Below are positions 1,038-57,367 of a stretch of 64,000 nucleotides of DNA, one piece after another. The position numbers were made by a program, and so were the translations under genes. The notes beneath the pieces were generated by a model. It worked only from the letters and a program-made list of their open reading frames with translations. It searched no databases and was not told the origin of the DNA. Source of the DNA: a virus; the IMG/VR virus record IMGVR_UViG_3300025133_000073, positions 1 through 64,000 of that record, one strand, 5' to 3'. Positions within the stretch are counted from its first letter, which is position 1. Every line of letters starts with the position of its first letter.

Positions 1038-1371
1038 AAAGGCGCAAGCTAAATTTGAGAAGTGGTATGAAAAACACCCAATAAGAATCCAATCAGATAT
1101 GAATGGATTACTTGCTACGGTAGTGACATTTGAACGACTTAACCCAATGTTCCAATGGGGAGTACTTCAACTGTTCGCTGATAGTGAGGGGGTTGAATTA
1201 GAAGTCGATAGATTTTGGGATTTTGTAGATGAACAATACAAAGGGTATTCTCATTACGTTCAATGGTATTCAGTAAAAGACCCTGATGCTGAATATATCT
1301 TAGCAGAAACCCGACCCGAAGCATGGAAAGCAGCAGTTAAAAAGTTGGACGAAATAATAAACGAGCAATGA
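1024..1371 (+). CDS. Hypothetical protein, 115 aa
   Basis: Acidic, tryptophan-rich soluble protein without recognised motifs. It has no signal peptide or membrane segment. The second half (about residues 60-110) has the pattern FWDFVDEQY...YVQWYSV...EAWKAAVKKLDEI. Small proteins with this kind of layout, ending in an amphipathic helix, are frequent in phage early operons and generally have no known role. It overlaps the upstream gene by 14 bases and the next 27-aa frame by ATGA. Confidence 0.75.
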   Translation: MNLTKKAQAKFEKWYEKHPIRIQSDMNGLLATVVTFERLNPMFQWGVLQLFADSEGVELEVDRFWDFVDEQYKGYSHYVQWYSVKDPDAEYILAETRPEAWKAAVKKLDEIINEQ

Positions 1372-1451
1372 CAATACTTGGATATATAGGAATAACAATG
1401 ATGCTATTAGCAGTAGCATCAATGTGTAATAAAACTAAAAAGCGGAAATAG
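1368..1451 (+). CDS. Putative 27-aa single-pass membrane peptide
   Basis: Starts on an ATGA overlap with the 115-aa gene and ends two bases before the next ATG, so it exactly fills the gap between two genes. Residues 3-19 (ILGYIGITMMLLAVASM) form one hydrophobic helix, followed by a basic tail (KTKKRK) that would remain in the cytoplasm by the positive-inside rule. No family is recognised. Support comes only from its coupling and its coherent membrane-peptide composition. Confidence 0.5.
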   Translation: MTILGYIGITMMLLAVASMCNKTKKRK

Positions 1452-1453
1452 AT

Positions 1454-1759
1454 ATGATAATAGCAGCAGTAAGAAATGATGACTCCATAATAGGAGTAAT
1501 AGGAGTTTCCGACCATGGGTCCTTATTAAGAACATTGACCGATGCGATATCTTCTTCGTTTTCATGTGATGAGATTCACTTTAACATGAAAGCAGAGACG
1601 ATGTGGGAAAATTTGAGAGGAACAAGAAGACTTGAACTGAATATAGACATTGTCCATTCGGATGATACTACAGAATCAGTGAACATTCTTGTTACATTGA
1701 CAAAATTCTACTTAGAGCAGGAAACGCTTGATAAGAAGGTAGAAAAAACAGATCAATAA
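1454..1759 (+). CDS. Hypothetical protein, 101 aa
   Basis: Soluble protein of unknown function. It opens with a beta-rich hydrophobic segment (MIIAAVRNDDSIIGVIGVSDHGS) and ends with a charged helix. No catalytic or binding motif is visible. It lies two bases after the 27-aa peptide and eight bases before the ribonucleotide reductase, so it is probably co-expressed with nucleotide metabolism, but that does not by itself assign a role. Confidence 0.7.
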   Translation: MIIAAVRNDDSIIGVIGVSDHGSLLRTLTDAISSSFSCDEIHFNMKAETMWENLRGTRRLELNIDIVHSDDTTESVNILVTLTKFYLEQETLDKKVEKTDQ

Positions 1760-1767
1760 TTGACCAA

Positions 1768-4371
1768 ATGGAAGACGTAATATGTGTAGAGAGAGATGAA
1801 CTGACTTATTTCAAAGGGGATGAGTTAGCCGCATCAGCGTGGAGAGAGAAATACGCAAAAGAGAATGAGAGCAATCCTGACGACATGCACAGACGCATGG
1901 CAGAAGAGTTTGCAAGAATTGAAAAGAAGTATATCAAAGAGGAATATGATAGATTCGGCAACTTTACAAAAGTGATGGATCTTAGTAAATATGGTCGAAC
2001 ACGTAAGGAGTTGAGTTATAAGGCGATCTTTAGATTATTTGAAGGCTTCAGATACATCTGTCCTCAGGGTAGTATAATGTCAATGCTCGGGTCTGAGAAG
2101 ATCGCATCATTGTCAAATTGCCTTGTTGTAGGACAGCCTCACGATAGTTACGGAGGAATACTACAGAAGGATCAGGAATTAGCACAGCTTATGAAGCGTA
2201 GATGCGGTGTAGGAATAGACATTTCAACACTTCGTCCTGAAGGTACGACGGTTACAAATGCTGCAGGGTCTTCAACAGGAGCAGTCAGCTTTATGCATCG
2301 GTTCTCAAATACTACTCGTGAAGTAGCTCAGAACGGAAGAAGAGGGGCATTGATGATAACCATTGATGTACGTCATCCTGATGTGTTTGATTTTGTCAAT
2401 ATTAAGAAGGATCTCACTAAGGTTACAGGTGCTAACATCTCTGTAATGTTGAGAGATGACTTTATGGAAGCTGTCAAGAATGATGAGGATTATATTCTCA
2501 GATTTCCCTGTGATGTACCTATGCATATTGATTCAGGATGTGCTCCTGAAATAATGCCTTATGATCAATTATGCGATGGGGCATTAGGTAAATATAAACG
2601 CATCAAAGCAAAAGAGTTATATGACTCTATTGTAGAGAATGCGCATGAGAATGCAGAGCCTGGACAGATGTTCATTGATAGACATCACAATTACAGTCCT
2701 GATGGAGTATATGAGCAATATCGTGGTGTGACTACGAATCCTTGCGGAGAGATCTTCATGCAGGAGTATGATGCATGTAGACTGATGGCAATTAACCTGC
2801 TTTCCTTTGTTGACAATCCTTATACGAATGAGGCAAGTGTCGATTGGGTAAAGCTATATGAAATGAGCTATGAACAACAGAGACTTGCTGATGATCTGGT
2901 TGATCTTGAATTGGAGCATATTTCGCGGATACTTGCGAAGGTTCATTCAGACGATCAACCTGAAAGTGTTAAAGCGGCTGAGATCGCTCTTTGGGAAAAT
3001 GTGTATGATACTGCTTCTGCGGGTCGTCGCACGGGTTGCGGTATTACTGCTCTGGGTGACATGCTTGCTGCCTTGGATATTAAGTACGATAGTTCAGCAG
3101 CTATTGACTTTGTTGAGAAGATATTCAAAACAAAGATGGAGGGGGAACTCGATTGCTCAATCGATCTATCTATCCTTCGTGGTAGTTTCAAAGGATGGGA
3201 CGCAGAAGTAGAGTTTAACGATTGTACTGATGGTATGTTTACAGGTAAGAATGAGTTCTACGATCTCATAGCTCAAACGTATCCTGAAATAGCACATAGA
3301 ATGTGTGATCACGGACGTAGGAACGTCTCATGGAGCACTTCTGCTCCTACAGGGACACTTAGCTTGCTTTGTCAGACATCTTCAGGTATAGAGCCTGTAT
3401 TCGCTCTTTATTATATGAGGAGAAAGAAGTCAAATGTAGGTGACCGTGTTGATTTCACTGATGAGAACGGAGATGAGTGGACAGAATATCCTGTTCTACA
3501 TCCTCAGTTTAAAGAGTGGATAAACAAACAAGGTTATTTATTATTTGATAATTGGGAAGAACTTCAAATAATCGGTATTAAAGAAGACGATTATAAATTC
3601 TTATTTGAAAATTCACCGTGGTACGGATCATGCGCTCCTGACATTGATTGGAAGAAACGTGTGGAGTTACAGGCTGTAATACAGAAGTACACGTCACATT
3701 CTATTAGTTCAACTATAAATTTACCAGAAAATGTATCAAAAGAAACGGTTGGAGAGATCTACCAATATGCGCACGAGAAGGGACTTAAAGGAGTCACCGT
3801 ATACCGTGAAGGGAGTCGATCGGGAGTCCTTATTAGAGATGCGGAAAAGAAGGGTGATGAGTTTAAACACAATGATGCTCCGAAAAGACCGATATGCCTT
3901 CCGTGTGAAATCCACAATACTGTCTCTAAGAGCGTTAAATGGAATGTGTTTGTTGGATTATACGATGGGCAACCTTATGAGGTCTTTGCTATACCGTATG
4001 AAACTGCTCGCACGGTTGGACAGATCTGTAAACGGAAGCGTGGAGTATATGATGTGCTTGACGAAGACGGAAAGGTTGTACTTGAACATATCTCTTCTAA
4101 GATACATACGGAGACGGAGGCTGTTCTGACACGATTGTTAAGTGCATCTCTAAGACACGGGGCTGATATCACGTTCTTAGTTGAACAGTTGAATAAGACC
4201 CATGGAGATGTTACTTCATTCAGTAAAGCTGTAGCGCGTACGTTGAAGAAGTATATAAATGAGGAAAAAACAGCAGCAAGAGCAACTTGCTCAGAGTGCG
4301 GTAGTGATTCTATCGTATTTGAAGAAGGCTGTATGTCATGTAAAAATTGTGGCAGCAGCAAGTGCGGGTAA
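1768..4371 (+). CDS. nrdJ: Class II (adenosylcobalamin-dependent) ribonucleotide reductase, 867 aa
   Basis: Reduces ribonucleotides to deoxyribonucleotides in the cytoplasm using a cobalamin-generated thiyl radical. Visible motifs: active-site cysteine in SLSNC (C118), its redox partner in GRRTGCG (C424), and the radical cysteine with glutamate in NPCGE (C326, E328). The SWSTSAPTGTLSLL block follows. The C-terminus has a CxxC...CxxCxxC cluster (CSECGS, CMSCKNC) typical of NrdJ proteins, used to re-reduce the active site and bind zinc. Length fits the family. No NrdB-like small subunit gene lies beside it, as expected for class II. The phage thus depends on host cobalamin rather than on oxygen or an Fe-S activase. 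A structured element follows at 4411-4495. Confidence 0.93.
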   Translation: MEDVICVERDELTYFKGDELAASAWREKYAKENESNPDDMHRRMAEEFARIEKKYIKEEYDRFGNFTKVMDLSKYGRTRKELSYKAIFRLFEGFRYICPQGSIMSMLGSEKIASLSNCLVVGQPHDSYGGILQKDQELAQLMKRRCGVGIDISTLRPEGTTVTNAAGSSTGAVSFMHRFSNTTREVAQNGRRGALMITIDVRHPDVFDFVNIKKDLTKVTGANISVMLRDDFMEAVKNDEDYILRFPCDVPMHIDSGCAPEIMPYDQLCDGALGKYKRIKAKELYDSIVENAHENAEPGQMFIDRHHNYSPDGVYEQYRGVTTNPCGEIFMQEYDACRLMAINLLSFVDNPYTNEASVDWVKLYEMSYEQQRLADDLVDLELEHISRILAKVHSDDQPESVKAAEIALWENVYDTASAGRRTGCGITALGDMLAALDIKYDSSAAIDFVEKIFKTKMEGELDCSIDLSILRGSFKGWDAEVEFNDCTDGMFTGKNEFYDLIAQTYPEIAHRMCDHGRRNVSWSTSAPTGTLSLLCQTSSGIEPVFALYYMRRKKSNVGDRVDFTDENGDEWTEYPVLHPQFKEWINKQGYLLFDNWEELQIIGIKEDDYKFLFENSPWYGSCAPDIDWKKRVELQAVIQKYTSHSISSTINLPENVSKETVGEIYQYAHEKGLKGVTVYREGSRSGVLIRDAEKKGDEFKHNDAPKRPICLPCEIHNTVSKSVKWNVFVGLYDGQPYEVFAIPYETARTVGQICKRKRGVYDVLDEDGKVVLEHISSKIHTETEAVLTRLLSASLRHGADITFLVEQLNKTHGDVTSFSKAVARTLKKYINEEKTAARATCSECGSDSIVFEEGCMSCKNCGSSKCG

Positions 4372-45381: not shown

Positions 45382-46410
45382 TTAAACTGAACCTCCATCT
45401 ACGATCGTCCATCCGTAAGTGCTGATCAATGAAGCTCTTGCTGCCTTTCCTGCACCCGCTCCTGTATATGTACTATTTCCGAAGTTTATACTTACTGCGT
45501 TCGTAGGAGCCTGTGCTTCCCACGCAATGAGAATAGCATCGTATACTGCTGTTGAGAATGTATTTGCCGCAAACAGATTCACTGCTGCTGTTATACCTCC
45601 TATTGTCCAAGTAACTACACCTCCTCCTAAATAATTTGTATTCTGGTTGAATACTCCTGACATACTTCCACTCGGAACCCATCCTGAGATAGTTCCGTTC
45701 TGTGTGGTCATTCCTCTAAAGGCGTCTGTCCATGTTGATATACCGCTTACATCCCATGAACTAAGATCACTTCTTGTATAAGAACTATTATTCAACATCA
45801 TCTGTTGAATATTTGTAACACCTGCGTGTATCAGATTCGATATATCACCGTTGAATGAAGTATTCAGATAAAGGAATTGAATGAACGATGTAACACCTGT
45901 TGTACCCCATCCGCTAAAATCACCATCTACTAATGATCCGCATCCTCTGAACGTATAATCCAGATTCGTTGCTGACACAGTAGGTGAGTCAATAACTGAT
46001 ATTGCCGTCATATTATCACATCCGAAGAATCCTCTATTAGTACTAAAGTCAAAATCTCCCCAACTTGTAATACTTAATAGTTTAAGTTTATCCAATCCAT
46101 TATTGAATTTCCATTGATCGATAACACCTGTAATAGTAATAGTATACGTTCCTGATGCAGCATACGTATGCGTCACCTCTGCTTGATTATAAGCAGTTAT
46201 AGTGTCACTATTGGAGTCACCCCAATCAACATCAAAAGGAAATGTTCCTCCTGATATAAGAGGAAGTTTAAATTGCGTACTCGTTGAAGATCCTGCACTT
46301 GTCTTAGTGGTATCGACTTCAAATACGAATCCTGCAACTCCTCCCCCTCCTATTATAGAGTGATAAGAGGTCTTTGACCTACATTTGATATTAGGACGGA
46401 AGTTATTCAT
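45382..46410 (-). CDS. PKD-like plus BspA/DUF285-type repeat protein, possible fibre or adhesin, 342 aa
   Basis: An N-terminal PKD-like domain is recognisable (FDVDWGDSNSD near residue 58, then HTYAASGTYTITITG near 80). It is followed by repeats of the BspA/DUF285 type, each with a Phe/Trp-centred loop (for example LDYTFRGCGSLVDGDFSGW, FLYLNTSFNGDI and MMLNNSSYTRSD). The C-terminus (VYDAILIAWEAQAP) matches the closing repeat of such proteins. This combination is common in surface proteins of Bacteroidetes, so the phage gene may have been taken from a host and used for surface binding. It has no signal peptide, so it is likely a virion part. It sits inside the lysis-like cassette, between membrane proteins and DUF5675. 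Confidence 0.75.
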   Translation of the reverse strand: MNNFRPNIKCRSKTSYHSIIGGGGVAGFVFEVDTTKTSAGSSTSTQFKLPLISGGTFPFDVDWGDSNSDTITAYNQAEVTHTYAASGTYTITITGVIDQWKFNNGLDKLKLLSITSWGDFDFSTNRGFFGCDNMTAISVIDSPTVSATNLDYTFRGCGSLVDGDFSGWGTTGVTSFIQFLYLNTSFNGDISNLIHAGVTNIQQMMLNNSSYTRSDLSSWDVSGISTWTDAFRGMTTQNGTISGWVPSGSMSGVFNQNTNYLGGGVVTWTIGGITAAVNLFAANTFSTAVYDAILIAWEAQAPTNAVSINFGNSTYTGAGAGKAARASLISTYGWTIVDGGSV

Positions 46411-47107: not shown

Positions 47108-47193
47108 TTTACTTCATCATTGCATGTACATTCTTTAGGCGCGTACGGACACCATTTATTTGCTTTCTTTTTCTTCTTCGTCCTTATTTTCAT
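47062..47193 (-). CDS. Candidate overlapping 43-aa cysteine-containing protein
   Basis: A frame starting at ATG 47193 overlaps the 3' end of the holin gene, spans the 48-base gap, and ends inside the 69-aa gene. The N-terminus is a run of lysines and the centre reads WCPYAPKECTCNDEVKCP, with four cysteines that could bind zinc. Cysteine-rich coherence in the exact stretch that no other gene covers is the argument for it. The overlaps make codon evidence weak, and no strong ribosome-binding site is spaced correctly. Confidence 0.4.
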   Translation of the reverse strand: MKIRTKKKKKANKWCPYAPKECTCNDEVKCPNKQKTSSKRIGN

Positions 47194-47596
47194 TCCTTGG
47201 TTTAAAGGCATCTATCTTATCTTTCAGATATGTCCAGATGTCAGTATCTGTAATATAACCAATATTTTCCATATTTGATCTGAATTCCACAAGAGCTATG
47301 TATCCTGCGGTAAGACTCGTGATAGGCATCCAAGCCATGAATATCACTTCAAGTAAATGAGCAAGTATGATAGCTATGGCATACATTATCATCTTAGTGA
47401 TGGTACGTGCCATTGCTCTCGAATGTATCTTCTCACCTCGTTTCTTTGCTGCACATATACCTGTGAATGTATCCATTATTGCAAATAGCCCTACGGCGAT
47501 TATCATTGTTGTTATGGGAGCAAAGAATGCCATTAAGAATGGTAATCCTATTGTCATAAGGCTTTTCCAAGTGAATGCTGTATACGATATTGTCAT
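47156..47596 (-). CDS. Holin (Phage_holin_4 type), 146 aa
   Basis: Membrane protein that forms lethal holes in the inner membrane to start lysis. Two or three hydrophobic helices are visible near residues 10-45 (LMTIGLPFLMAFFAPITTMI, IAVGLFAIMDTFTG) and near 70-95 (MIMYAIAIILAHLLEVIFMAW). Between them lies DTFTGICAAKKRGEKIHSR, the conserved cytoplasmic loop of the family. A polar acidic tail follows. It starts four bases inside the upstream structural gene and is followed by the spanin-like genes, which supports a lysis role. Family length is typical. Confidence 0.82.
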   Translation of the reverse strand: MTISYTAFTWKSLMTIGLPFLMAFFAPITTMIIAVGLFAIMDTFTGICAAKKRGEKIHSRAMARTITKMIMYAIAIILAHLLEVIFMAWMPITSLTAGYIALVEFRSNMENIGYITDTDIWTYLKDKIDAFKPRNENKDEEEKESK

Positions 47597-48288
47597 ACTA
47601 AAGGTGATGTTACTTCCTGAGGTTCATACCCTCCAGTACATTTTTGGCAGTATTTATCAAGCCATGTTTTCATTTCACACAGCTCTTCATTTGTCATACA
47701 GCTTCCAGAGATGTTATCTGTCTCTGTAATAGAGGACGAAATACTGGTACTGTTAAAATCTATCATAACAAGTCCTAATGCAGTTGCTGACCAAGGGTCA
47801 GTTGCTGTTCCCCATTCTTCAGAGAATTTCAAAGTGTATGTCCCTATACCTGTCAAAGGATCAATAACTACCGATGAAGTGAAATCCTGAGCACTATTGA
47901 ACGCTTGATTGATCACTGTGTGTAATTGTGTATTCAGATCAATAAGATCTGTACATACATAATCACCCATCATAGGGATCTCTATGGTCATTGCACCGTC
48001 ATAACTTGTTACGATCGGATTTGCAGTTACAGTAACCGTTGTAGGAAATACTGGAACACCTGGCACCACATGGAAAAACTCATGAGTTACTGTTGCTGTC
48101 CACCATGTAGCATCGCTACCTGAAGGATTACACGCAAGCATCTCTAAGAAGACATTTGCTATGAAATCATTGTTGATGCAGCACATTGCATTCTCTACAG
48201 AATGCTTTAAAAGTTCATGTGTAGCATGAGTACTTGTTGATACACAACAAAGTTTGTTATTCACATATTTCTGTACTGCGTTTGCCAT
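47593..48288 (-). CDS. Cysteine-containing structural protein, 231 aa
   Basis: Beta-rich protein with paired cysteines at both ends: NNKLCCV and NAMCCINN in the first 40 residues, and GSCMTNEELCEM with KYCQKC at the C-terminus. The middle (TTVTVTANPIVTSYDGAMTIEIPMM) alternates strands like a fibre or decoration domain. The C-terminal Cys-rich helix resembles that of the 183-aa protein at 52151, suggesting a shared attachment module for virion surface proteins. It touches the SET-domain gene upstream and the holin downstream. No enzyme motif is visible. Confidence 0.68.
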   Translation of the reverse strand: MANAVQKYVNNKLCCVSTSTHATHELLKHSVENAMCCINNDFIANVFLEMLACNPSGSDATWWTATVTHEFFHVVPGVPVFPTTVTVTANPIVTSYDGAMTIEIPMMGDYVCTDLIDLNTQLHTVINQAFNSAQDFTSSVVIDPLTGIGTYTLKFSEEWGTATDPWSATALGLVMIDFNSTSISSSITETDNISGSCMTNEELCEMKTWLDKYCQKCTGGYEPQEVTSPLV

Positions 48289-48647
48289 TATGTAAAATTA
48301 ACACTTGTTTTATAATCGATCAATATCTCACTTCCTTCTGCTATTGCTTTGGTTGCCGTGAATCTGAACAGGTTGTTCTCCTCATCTGTTTCCCAATCTG
48401 CATTAGGTTCAGTAGAGTGATTGTACGTACTTCCGAATCCCAATACTATGCAATTTGTCTTTGAATAAATAGGGAATGTATAAACGTAGTTCTTCAGGTC
48501 GTCAAGATAACCGTAATCTGCATCTGTCAGGAATATGAAGTGACATTCTTCAAGAATCTCACCTTCAGCTATATCAGCAGAAGCGAATACTCCTCTTCCC
48601 TCTACTTCAGAGTCCTTTATATATAATTTTGTCGCTGCCTGTAACAT
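48288..48647 (-). CDS. SET-domain protein, putative lysine methyltransferase, 119 aa
   Basis: SET domains transfer a methyl group from S-adenosylmethionine to lysine. The main motifs are present in order: GRGVFASADIAEGEILEEC (about residues 18-36), GSTYNHSTEPNADW (about 75-88), and FTATKAIAEGSEILIDY near the C-terminus. The NHS and the terminal tyrosine correspond to the binding and catalytic core. The protein is the minimal SET fold with no extra recognition domain. I chose the ATG at 48647, one base after the upstream stop; an ATG at 48680 would add 11 residues and overlap the fibre gene. It sits between a fibre gene and a structural gene, so a virion protein could be its substrate; this is inference. 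Confidence 0.82.
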   Translation of the reverse strand: MLQAATKLYIKDSEVEGRGVFASADIAEGEILEECHFIFLTDADYGYLDDLKNYVYTFPIYSKTNCIVLGFGSTYNHSTEPNADWETDEENNLFRFTATKAIAEGSEILIDYKTSVNFT

Positions 48648-48648
48648 C

Positions 48649-50091
48649 TTATCGTATTTCTTCCCATCTGATGCCTGCAAGTACGGCTGCGTCCGATGCG
48701 TCAGACCTTATTGCGGCTACTGTGAGTATTCCTGTACCCGAACCTTGTTTATCCCACAGAACCGTTTTTCCAAGAACACTTGCTGTATTTCCTGCTGCCA
48801 CTATTGACCCTTTACCTCCGCCTCCTGATGCATATACATACTCACTGTCTATCTCATGTCCGTTCGATACTGCTGTAGCAGCTATGTCGAACTCCATACA
48901 ACTTTCAGATGTGTCAACATCATTCCATGCAGCATTAGTAAGAACAGCGTCATGAAGTATCACATATCTGATACTCTCGTCTGTTTGAACGAATACGCTC
49001 TTTGGAAGAGAGAGTATCATATTGTCAAATGTCTGAAAAGTGCTTTTAGGTCTAATACTTATCAACGGTACCAAAGTTGTACTAACAGTATATGTAGATA
49101 TTCCTCTGTCTGCAACTCTTGGGAGCCCAGGTATATCAACAAGATCTGCACCTCCTTCACTCTTGACAGTACAGCAAATAGCCTTCATTGTAGCAGAAGC
49201 ATTTGCTGCTATCTTGTATCGATACCCTATTGCATTAGCATCGTTTCCGTATCCGCATTCCATATAAGTAATGCCTCCTGTGGTATACACTTTGAAATAT
49301 GCAGGAAGATTTGCCATCTGCCAGTAACCTGAATTTCTCAGATTATCATTATGAATACTTCCAAGATACGTTGGAGCACCGTTTGCTACTTTGAAGAATC
49401 TGATCGTACCGACCTTGAGAGATTGAAAATCCATACCTAAGATATGAGATTTTGACCAATCCATAGATGTAGTATCTATCGCCCAATCATCTTCATGTAC
49501 AACATCAAGATCTGCAGCAGACCCTGATATAGAGCTTCTAAGAAAGAACTCAGCGTTTCCTCCTCCTATATTTGCAAGGTCGAGAACAGTAGTTTCTTCT
49601 ATTAACTGAGAGTTACCTGGAGTGTATACGATCGGGTGAGAACGCATTTCCGCATATGACCCGTTATTCGCATCACTCAATGAGAGTGTAAGGTCTCTGG
49701 TATTACCGTTATGTGTGACCGTCCCATTATTGATTATCTCATCGAAGTAGTCAGGTTGCTTATCGTAAAGGAACTCAACATCAGCTCGTTGTCCTGTACC
49801 TGATACTCTGTCTCTACTGAAGGCATCCTTTGATAGATCTGATGTACCACTTGCTCCTGTACCACCGAGATACCCATCAATGATCTCAATAAGTTCAAGT
49901 TCTGTTGTAGATACAGGTAGGATAAATTCCTTATATGCATCATTTACCACAATTACACCATCAGATGTAATTATGATATTACCATTGTCACCACTTACAG
50001 TAGTAACAGACTTGAAGTAATAATTGATCTTACTGATCGTATCATTATAAACAAGGATTCTATCTGGTCGATCTTCTACGTGCCATGCCAT
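48649..50091 (-). CDS. Putative head or tail fibre / adhesin, 480 aa
   Basis: Beta-rich, low-charge protein typical of phage fibres. After an N-terminal module (LVYNDTISKINYYFKSVTTV) there is a lectin-like region (DFQSLKVGTIRFFKVANGAP, IHNDNLRNSGYWQMANLP as consecutive patterns) and a C-terminal region with YVYASGGGGKGSIVAAGN. No collagen repeats or enzyme motifs are seen. It is directly joined to the 331-aa fibre gene (one shared base) and followed by the SET-domain gene. It likely binds the cell surface or decorates the capsid; which of these is undecided. Confidence 0.7.
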   Translation of the reverse strand: MAWHVEDRPDRILVYNDTISKINYYFKSVTTVSGDNGNIIITSDGVIVVNDAYKEFILPVSTTELELIEIIDGYLGGTGASGTSDLSKDAFSRDRVSGTGQRADVEFLYDKQPDYFDEIINNGTVTHNGNTRDLTLSLSDANNGSYAEMRSHPIVYTPGNSQLIEETTVLDLANIGGGNAEFFLRSSISGSAADLDVVHEDDWAIDTTSMDWSKSHILGMDFQSLKVGTIRFFKVANGAPTYLGSIHNDNLRNSGYWQMANLPAYFKVYTTGGITYMECGYGNDANAIGYRYKIAANASATMKAICCTVKSEGGADLVDIPGLPRVADRGISTYTVSTTLVPLISIRPKSTFQTFDNMILSLPKSVFVQTDESIRYVILHDAVLTNAAWNDVDTSESCMEFDIAATAVSNGHEIDSEYVYASGGGGKGSIVAAGNTASVLGKTVLWDKQGSGTGILTVAAIRSDASDAAVLAGIRWEEIR

Positions 50092-55861: not shown

Positions 55862-57367
55862 TTACCAAAGGATGTTCGGTATCAGACTCTTCGTACGTGA
55901 AGGATCATATACTATCGCACCACATTGTGACGCACGGTGAATGGTGTAACCATCAGTTGCGTGTGCCATTATACTCATCTTACCTTCTGGTGAGAAAGGA
56001 TCTCTCAATCCTGGCTCGTATCCCCAGATGTTCTCAGATCCTTTCACATAGACCTTCTGAATGTTCGGCTCACCATTGGTGGTTCCGATATCCATGATGT
56101 CATATCTGTAAGATTCTGCAACTCCACCGTCGGGATGAAGGATCTTATTACGTGTACGGTTGTCGTACATGCTGTCAACCATGATGGAGAAACGGATACC
56201 GTTAGGTCCCATGTAATCCAAGAATTGACCGCCGTATCCGAGTGCCAACTTAACCCCTTTCATTCCACCATTCTGAGATGTCTTGAACATCCTGTCCTGA
56301 TTGAACAATGGTGTAAACAATTGAGAATGATTCTCAAGAGCAGTGTGGAACTGTACAGCTCCCCTTTCACCTGTTCGGGCTACGAAGTGACGCTGATCAG
56401 TAGGCAATTTACCTTCTGACAGACTCATCAATACGTCAAGCAACCAATCGATAGTAAAATCAGCATAGAACTCAGTACCTGAAGATTCCATCTGCTGACG
56501 GATACCTGCACCTTGCTTCTTGATGTGACCTGACTTACCGAAGTTGTAATACTCACCGTTCACTCCCCTGTTGCTTCGCGCAAACATAAGTAACTTGTTC
56601 TTTTCCTCACGGAACTCACGATCGAAGATATAATCCTCGTAGTTTGTCCATGTAAGGAAGGTCTTCAACGAACCGTCGCCGTCTTTGACCTTGAAGCCCG
56701 TACCGAAAGGTCGGTTCTTCATGTTACCAGGAACCGTGTGCTCCATACGGATCATAGAGAAAGAATTTCTCATTCCGAAAGGAGACTCGAAGCTGATTCC
56801 ACCACCTTTCTTAGAAAGAGTGTCCTCAACGAGTGACCAATCACGTGACCATCGTGTACCTGATGCCAATTCTTCAACTGGAACAAACAGATCAGGATCG
56901 CCTGTGATAAGCTTTACTGGATAAACATAGTTACTACCGTCTGCCCACGGGTCACGTTGGACCTGCAAAGGGTATAATTCATTTTGATGACCGACAAGGA
57001 TGTGTTCATCCGTGAAGATCTTTTCCTCGAAAACCAAATAGAACTCAGTAACTACTGCTCCTGGTTCATCGCCTACTGCAACTGCGGCACCGTCGGCAGT
57101 AAGTCGAGCCTCCACAAGTGGTAGGTTCTTCGTACTGTCTCCGATCAGTTCCCAAGTGTAATCATCATCGGTATCAAGGTACTTGACCTTATACTTAGAT
57201 AATTGGGAATCGAGATCCATACCAAAATTAGTGGTAAAGATCCTACGCATGATGTCAGTGGCCTTTTGAGGTCTTCCTTGGTATACGCTGTACAGGTGGT
57301 TTGCAGTAGTTATACCGCTCCAGTGCTGTGCATCGTACATCTGAAACTCTGAAAATGGAAGTGCCAT
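55862..57367 (-). CDS. Major capsid protein, 501 aa
   Basis: The head shell protein, expected to have the HK97 fold. It opens with MALPFSEFQMYDAQHWSG and carries long family-like stretches: MRRIFTTNFGMDLD, GDSTKNLPLVEARLTADG, YVYPVKLITGDPDLFVP and KYKVKYLDTDDDYTWEL. No cleaved signal or protease site is evident. It follows an acidic scaffold gene and the portal and terminase, the fixed order of crAss-like phages. The 24-base gap upstream contains no promoter match, so it is expected to be read from the promoter before the scaffold gene. Confidence 0.88.
   Translation of the reverse strand: MALPFSEFQMYDAQHWSGITTANHLYSVYQGRPQKATDIMRRIFTTNFGMDLDSQLSKYKVKYLDTDDDYTWELIGDSTKNLPLVEARLTADGAAVAVGDEPGAVVTEFYLVFEEKIFTDEHILVGHQNELYPLQVQRDPWADGSNYVYPVKLITGDPDLFVPVEELASGTRWSRDWSLVEDTLSKKGGGISFESPFGMRNSFSMIRMEHTVPGNMKNRPFGTGFKVKDGDGSLKTFLTWTNYEDYIFDREFREEKNKLLMFARSNRGVNGEYYNFGKSGHIKKQGAGIRQQMESSGTEFYADFTIDWLLDVLMSLSEGKLPTDQRHFVARTGERGAVQFHTALENHSQLFTPLFNQDRMFKTSQNGGMKGVKLALGYGGQFLDYMGPNGIRFSIMVDSMYDNRTRNKILHPDGGVAESYRYDIMDIGTTNGEPNIQKVYVKGSENIWGYEPGLRDPFSPEGKMSIMAHATDGYTIHRASQCGAIVYDPSRTKSLIPNILW

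Follow-up and report, generated by a model that had tools for sequence, protein, structure and literature searches.

Methylation of lysine residues by SET domain proteins is known mainly as a reaction directed at histones or at the host. Among solved structures, the closest sequence relative of the protein described here is vSET (A612L) of the chlorovirus PBCV-1 (PDB 1n3j/3kma; E = 2.9e-12), which likewise is virus encoded, has 119 aa and consists of a bare SET fold. According to PMC7019647, vSET is packaged and trimethylates host histone H3 at Lys27, showing that an enzyme of such size is active, in this case on a host histone. In Salmonella, FliB methylates surface lysines of flagellin, raising hydrophobicity and adhesion, by a [4Fe-4S]-mediated methyl transfer (PMC7181671 and PMC8598068, respectively).

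In phages, ORF62 of Stenotrophomonas phage Ps15 (Menderavirus) carries a SET domain (35% identity over 89% of the query) and, unlike the gene described here, lies among small hypothetical genes; PMC9025141 gives it one line without a function. Beyond this line, no function of a phage SET protein was found in the open-licence literature. Mentions of a "SET domain" in PMC10172136 and PMC3220722 refer to immunoglobulin C2-set and I-set domains. The head fibers of crAss001, gp21 and gp29, have a short N-terminal anchor and a separate C-terminal domain, and the C terminus of gp21 has homologs outside Crassvirales (PMC10172136); the string "methyl" is absent from the main text of that paper.

A SET domain protein between virion and lysis genes

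The stretch analyzed, hereafter the window, comprises positions 1 to 64,000 (64,000 nucleotides) of the 75,406-base IMG/VR record IMGVR_UViG_3300025133_000073; all window features given below are on the minus strand. It belongs to a crAss-like phage (Crassvirales): capsid, portal and terminase match the crAss-like PHROGs phrog_11589, phrog_6547 and phrog_6681, and the major capsid protein (55862 to 57367; phrog_11589, E = 2.4e-108) is 40 to 42% identical to crAss-like phage records, Bacteroides phages among them.

In a series of genes for virion and lysis proteins lies an ORF of 119 aa (48288 to 48647), read from ATG to TAA; the plus strand reads stops over the same interval. The original prediction of a SET protein with the motifs GRGVF, NHSTEPN and ILIDY was confirmed, with the strand being minus: all three motifs lie within the 119 aa, and PF00856 matched over its entire length (profile 1 to 105 of 105; E = 1.2e-13; 51.8 bits, cut-off 22.4). 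Starting from a TTG 33 bases further upstream, the protein would have 130 aa, but the ATG form was used because only one base separates its ATG from the stop of the preceding gene. The protein is a stand-alone SET domain without pre- or post-SET domains, and the PF00856 search of the whole record revealed no second SET match.

The motif residues are G17, G19, N76-H77-S78, P81-N82 and Y112. They correspond to the GxG, NHxxxPN-type and catalytic Tyr motifs established for the SET family. G17, G19, N76 and Y112 were invariant in all 52 distinct phage SETs compared. An AlphaFold2 model based on a 52-row alignment had a pLDDT of 89.2 and a pTM of 0.83, and vSET was ranked first by Foldseek (E = 2.5e-10). 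VIA-align gave near ties between PFL0690c (Z 16.2), vSET (Z 15.4) and Set7 (Z 15.2), with 103 residues aligned to vSET at an rmsd of 1.9. Identity to vSET was 34 to 35% over the structural alignments, and the sequence alignment stops at residue 113. In line with PF00856, the vSET match and the model, we annotate the protein as a predicted single-domain protein-lysine N-methyltransferase.

A defence or counter-defence role was rejected, since none of the PADLOC models matched at E ≤ 0.01. As to a host origin of the gene, one scan of bacterial genomes yielded a single weak relative (32%, Uhrbacteria MAG). We conclude that the SET protein is real and rare, and probably an active enzyme.

Downstream, the SET gene overlaps (TAATG) the gene for a 231-aa protein (47593 to 48288), which is followed by a holin gene (47156 to 47596; PF05105, E = 4.4e-13). 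This downstream neighbor had been described as a Cys-rich structural gene. Its 10 Cys residues bear out the first part; the word "structural" found no counterpart, as no Pfam, PHROG or PADLOC family was matched, and NCBIfam gave one weak match, far below the cut-off. A DUF285 repeat protein with a PKD-like part is encoded at 45382 to 46410.

The upstream adhesin and its association with SET

The gene upstream of SET encodes a 480-aa protein (48649 to 50091), the stop codon of which ends one base before the SET start (TAA-G-ATG). Residues 298 to 479 match phrog_1645, "virion structural protein" (E = 5.6e-30), in agreement with the predicted fiber-type neighbor. Its comparison with other phages shows that the gene is a chimera. 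The N-terminal anchor (residues 1 to about 82; 49846 to 50091) is common to sister crAss-like phages (27 to 32% identity, three records), and the C-terminal module (residues about 83 to 480; 48652 to 49845) is swappable, with homologs in 14 viral contigs that have other N termini, mostly begin at residues 74 to 101 and run to the end. More distant relatives of the module, in cyanophages and phage HMO-2011, carry annotations as phage or virion structural proteins. In the model, residues 102 to 313 (49153 to 49788) form a predicted jelly-roll domain of the GH16/concanavalin A-like fold, for which the best VIA-align match was 3d6e_B (Z 11.8, rmsd 2.8, 153 residues aligned, 10% identity). The model of the whole protein was moderate (pLDDT 68.9 overall, pTM 0.54), and Foldseek TM-scores were low. 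By phmmer against solved structures, neither this protein nor its 331-aa neighbor had a useful match. Based on the predicted fold, we read the protein as a putative glycan-binding adhesin, of a head or tail fiber. The plan of an anchor plus a C-terminal part is shared with the crAss001 head fibers, but in contrast to gp21 and gp29 the adhesin has no sequence match to solved structures.

A related capsid gene led to 21 records for comparison, most of them fragments. The adhesin gene was reached in three, two of which extend past the gene end. The equivalents match the window adhesin N-terminally only (query residues 1 to 82, 1 to 110 and 1 to 164), and beyond about residue 164 nothing of it was matched in these three sister records. 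Searching all 21 whole records with PF00856 revealed no SET. In one sister phage (L115), the anchor gene encodes 240 aa with a different C terminus (phrog_8270) and is directly followed by a homolog of the 231-aa gene; SET is absent between them. Elsewhere in L115, three stretches of a 794-aa gene match the DUF285 repeat protein of the window.

Module and SET were found together in a second contig, L002. Its module is 58% identical to that of the window and is directly followed, with an ATGA overlap, by a SET gene whose product is 67% identical and keeps all catalytic residues, as does the window SET. No other window homologs were found among the L002 ORFs, and its protease and capsid region differ from those of the window. 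In a quick tree with long branches, the two SETs were sisters (SH-aLRT 98); the window SET in the tree and locus comparisons may carry alignment gaps, and its identity to the L002 SET agreed with other comparisons. The L002 module is interrupted by a frame break in the contig, which was kept as is: its main ORF spans 1269 to 2417 (plus strand), and a 47-aa ORF just upstream (1157 to 1300) carries the opening residues in another frame. Directly after the L002 SET gene is a 44-aa Lys-rich ORF (2769 to 2903, plus strand), which starts MKKKKKYQ.

Because the unrelated L002 has both module and SET and L115 has neither, the two look like one unit, a putative mobile cassette that would have moved between unrelated phages; the 231-aa gene marks its far flank in the window. 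The fiber-linked role proposed originally for SET is partly supported: since module and SET are joint in two unrelated phages and both missing from the sisters, SET appears tied to the adjacent adhesin module. The suggested tuning of receptor binding and escape from proteases are conjectural, and escape from antibodies entirely so.

Could the target of SET be a different virion protein, such as the 231-aa protein or a capsid protein? Its location among virion and lysis genes would fit, and the 231-aa gene overlaps SET as well. However, the 231-aa gene occurs without SET in sister phages (homologs 31% and 30% identical), and the L002 SET occurs without the 231-aa gene. We consider such a target unlikely.

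SET adjoins the module in the window and L002 only. Of the contigs that continue beyond the module, 11 of 12 lack SET (in two others the sequence stops within the module), and PF00856 searches of whole records were negative for nine module records and for L086, L087 and L088. The window capsid protein had no match in 12 module-bearing records, a search that shows little. A module tree neither grouped window and L002 nor rejected their grouping (AU p = 0.52). Since 11 of 12 contigs lack SET, the module does not need it to work.

These data bear on two further explanations. Small genes after tail fibers often act as chaperones or assembly factors, and the position of SET after a fiber gene and its transfer with a C-terminal module resemble such fiber-chaperone pairs. 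Catalysis would then be secondary or lost, but the catalytic residues are kept in the window, in L002 and in all 52 distinct SETs, and 11 of 12 modules do without SET, making this reading very improbable in our view. Scarcely better is the prospect that SET is a passenger without selected function, brought in by one recombination. Its presence at only two module loci would fit, but intact frames and motifs at 67% identity between unrelated phages suggest maintained selection.

SET genes of other phages and their upstream neighbors

At E ≤ 1e-3, 140 stretches of viral contigs encode SET relatives, so the initial view of SET proteins as mostly eukaryotic or host targeting was too narrow. Of these 140 relatives, the best 80 were used; we examined 81 loci (52 distinct SETs). 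Most distinct SETs examined do not adjoin a fiber gene. Of the 52, 18 have an upstream ORF that is coupled to SET and at most 20 bases away, and 34 have none. In one large clade, the gene upstream of SET is on the opposite strand, and other genes nearby are, judged from their sequences, presumably of the recombination/replication type. A second clade is located before a helicase gene, and further SETs adjoin long unidentified ORFs.

At 14 of the 81 loci (6 of 52 distinct SETs), SET follows a gene for a small Lys/Gly-repeat protein (L036, L037, L038, L041-L043, L045-L048, L053-L055 and L077). An example of such a repeat, AKKKMRGGGMAKKRM, is histone-tail-like. A pattern scan for Lys/Gly repeats that was blind to SET returned at least 120 loci (L131-L250). 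SET was present in 13 of the 120 listed, and in all 13 it was the next gene downstream on the same strand, with a gap of -4 to 0. Altogether, 27 paired SET rows represent 26 contigs (L238 is identical to L055). The paired SETs reach down to 47.5% identity, and therefore the pairing is old. Given its strictness, the simplest common rule for coupled SETs is that the substrate is the upstream product; this rule does not cover the uncoupled clades.

Several other arrangements were observed. In L050 (5974 to 7089, plus strand), SET is fused in one ORF to a 2OG-Fe(II) oxygenase domain (PF13640), possibly as a double protein-modifying enzyme. In L066, L073 and L084, the ORF coupled upstream of SET is apparently a second SET-like protein, in tandem copies, and in L042, L047, L048 and L053 a 37-aa Lys-rich ORF directly follows SET. 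In cyanophage P-RSM6, a weak relative of SET (L019, 5974 to 6273, plus strand) lies next to gp25-like and baseplate wedge genes.

The distribution of these genes also bears on a host target. SET could methylate a nucleoid, ribosomal, RNA polymerase or defence protein of the host, its position merely giving late expression. Many phage SETs do lie in nonstructural regions, such as the clade upstream of the helicase gene and the Menderavirus SETs among small hypothetical genes, and vSET, the nearest solved relative, is a packaged enzyme whose substrate is histone H3 of the host (PMC7019647). The window SET differs from vSET in being coupled to an adhesin gene. To our knowledge, the bacterial host of the window phage has no such histone. 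A host target would leave unexplained why module and SET are present or absent together and why SET pairs so strictly with Lys/Gly-repeat genes. Furthermore, host takeover would be poorly served by a gene that is expressed late and placed between virion and lysis genes. Altogether, we regard a host target as rather unlikely, though the likeliest of the alternatives.

Proposed methylation of the adhesin

The genomic data make a good case, albeit not proof, that SET serves the adhesin. We propose that SET is an active minimal lysine methyltransferase that acts on the C-terminal module of the adhesin before assembly and thereby alters binding, a proposal to which we give somewhat less than an even chance. 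For it, we infer catalytic activity, substrate, site, timing and consequence as follows. Translated from the adhesin message, immediately after the adhesin itself, SET would bind the C-terminal module and methylate one or a few of its lysines during adhesin synthesis, before particle assembly. Methylation would render a loop or surface more hydrophobic, and this change could alter the binding of the adhesin to glycans or the cell surface. The nearest working analog is flagellin methylation by FliB, which would work alike on an external adhesive filament protein; since FliB has no SET fold, the likeness is one of analogy only.

The candidate target is Lys427 (codon at 48811 to 48813) in the glycine-rich loop SGGGGKGSI. 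Both SET-associated modules have an extended loop with the sequence GGKGS. Among complete modules that lack SET (10 compared, 9 of them distinct, with L087 excluded as a copy of L086), none contains GGKG. Confidence of the adhesin model is low over this loop, which is consistent with its being flexible. Lys427 is perhaps the SET target in the adhesin. We treat the loop as a lead only, because there are two positives and the tree neither joins nor separates them; with the module tree undecided (AU p = 0.52), shared loop features may reflect plain ancestry.

Another position, Lys267, is Lys in the window and L002 modules and Arg or Asn in the 10 others. It was dismissed as a SET-linked site, since 7 of the 55 pairs of sequences have one private Lys in common and the pattern is no more than expected by chance. 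Likewise, a Lys/Gly-repeat protein of the phage itself was rejected as an alternative substrate: by the patterns tried, none was found among window ORFs of at least 40 aa, the maximum Lys content being 13.1%.

More broadly, phage SETs of this family may be dedicated lysine methylases of the upstream product, which would be a Lys/Gly-repeat protein in marine phages and the lectin-like adhesin module with GGKGS here. We offer this generalization tentatively, as one that stands well below even chances.

Should this generalization hold, it would make the first case of phage virion proteins whose lysine methylation is genetically encoded, enzyme and substrate being passed on as a unit in a mobile cassette. 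The adhesin proposal predicts methyl-Lys on one named protein, perhaps at one named residue. crAss-like phages are abundant, and if phages methylate their own attachment proteins, posttranslational chemistry would be a new layer in host recognition, with the substrate predictable from gene order.
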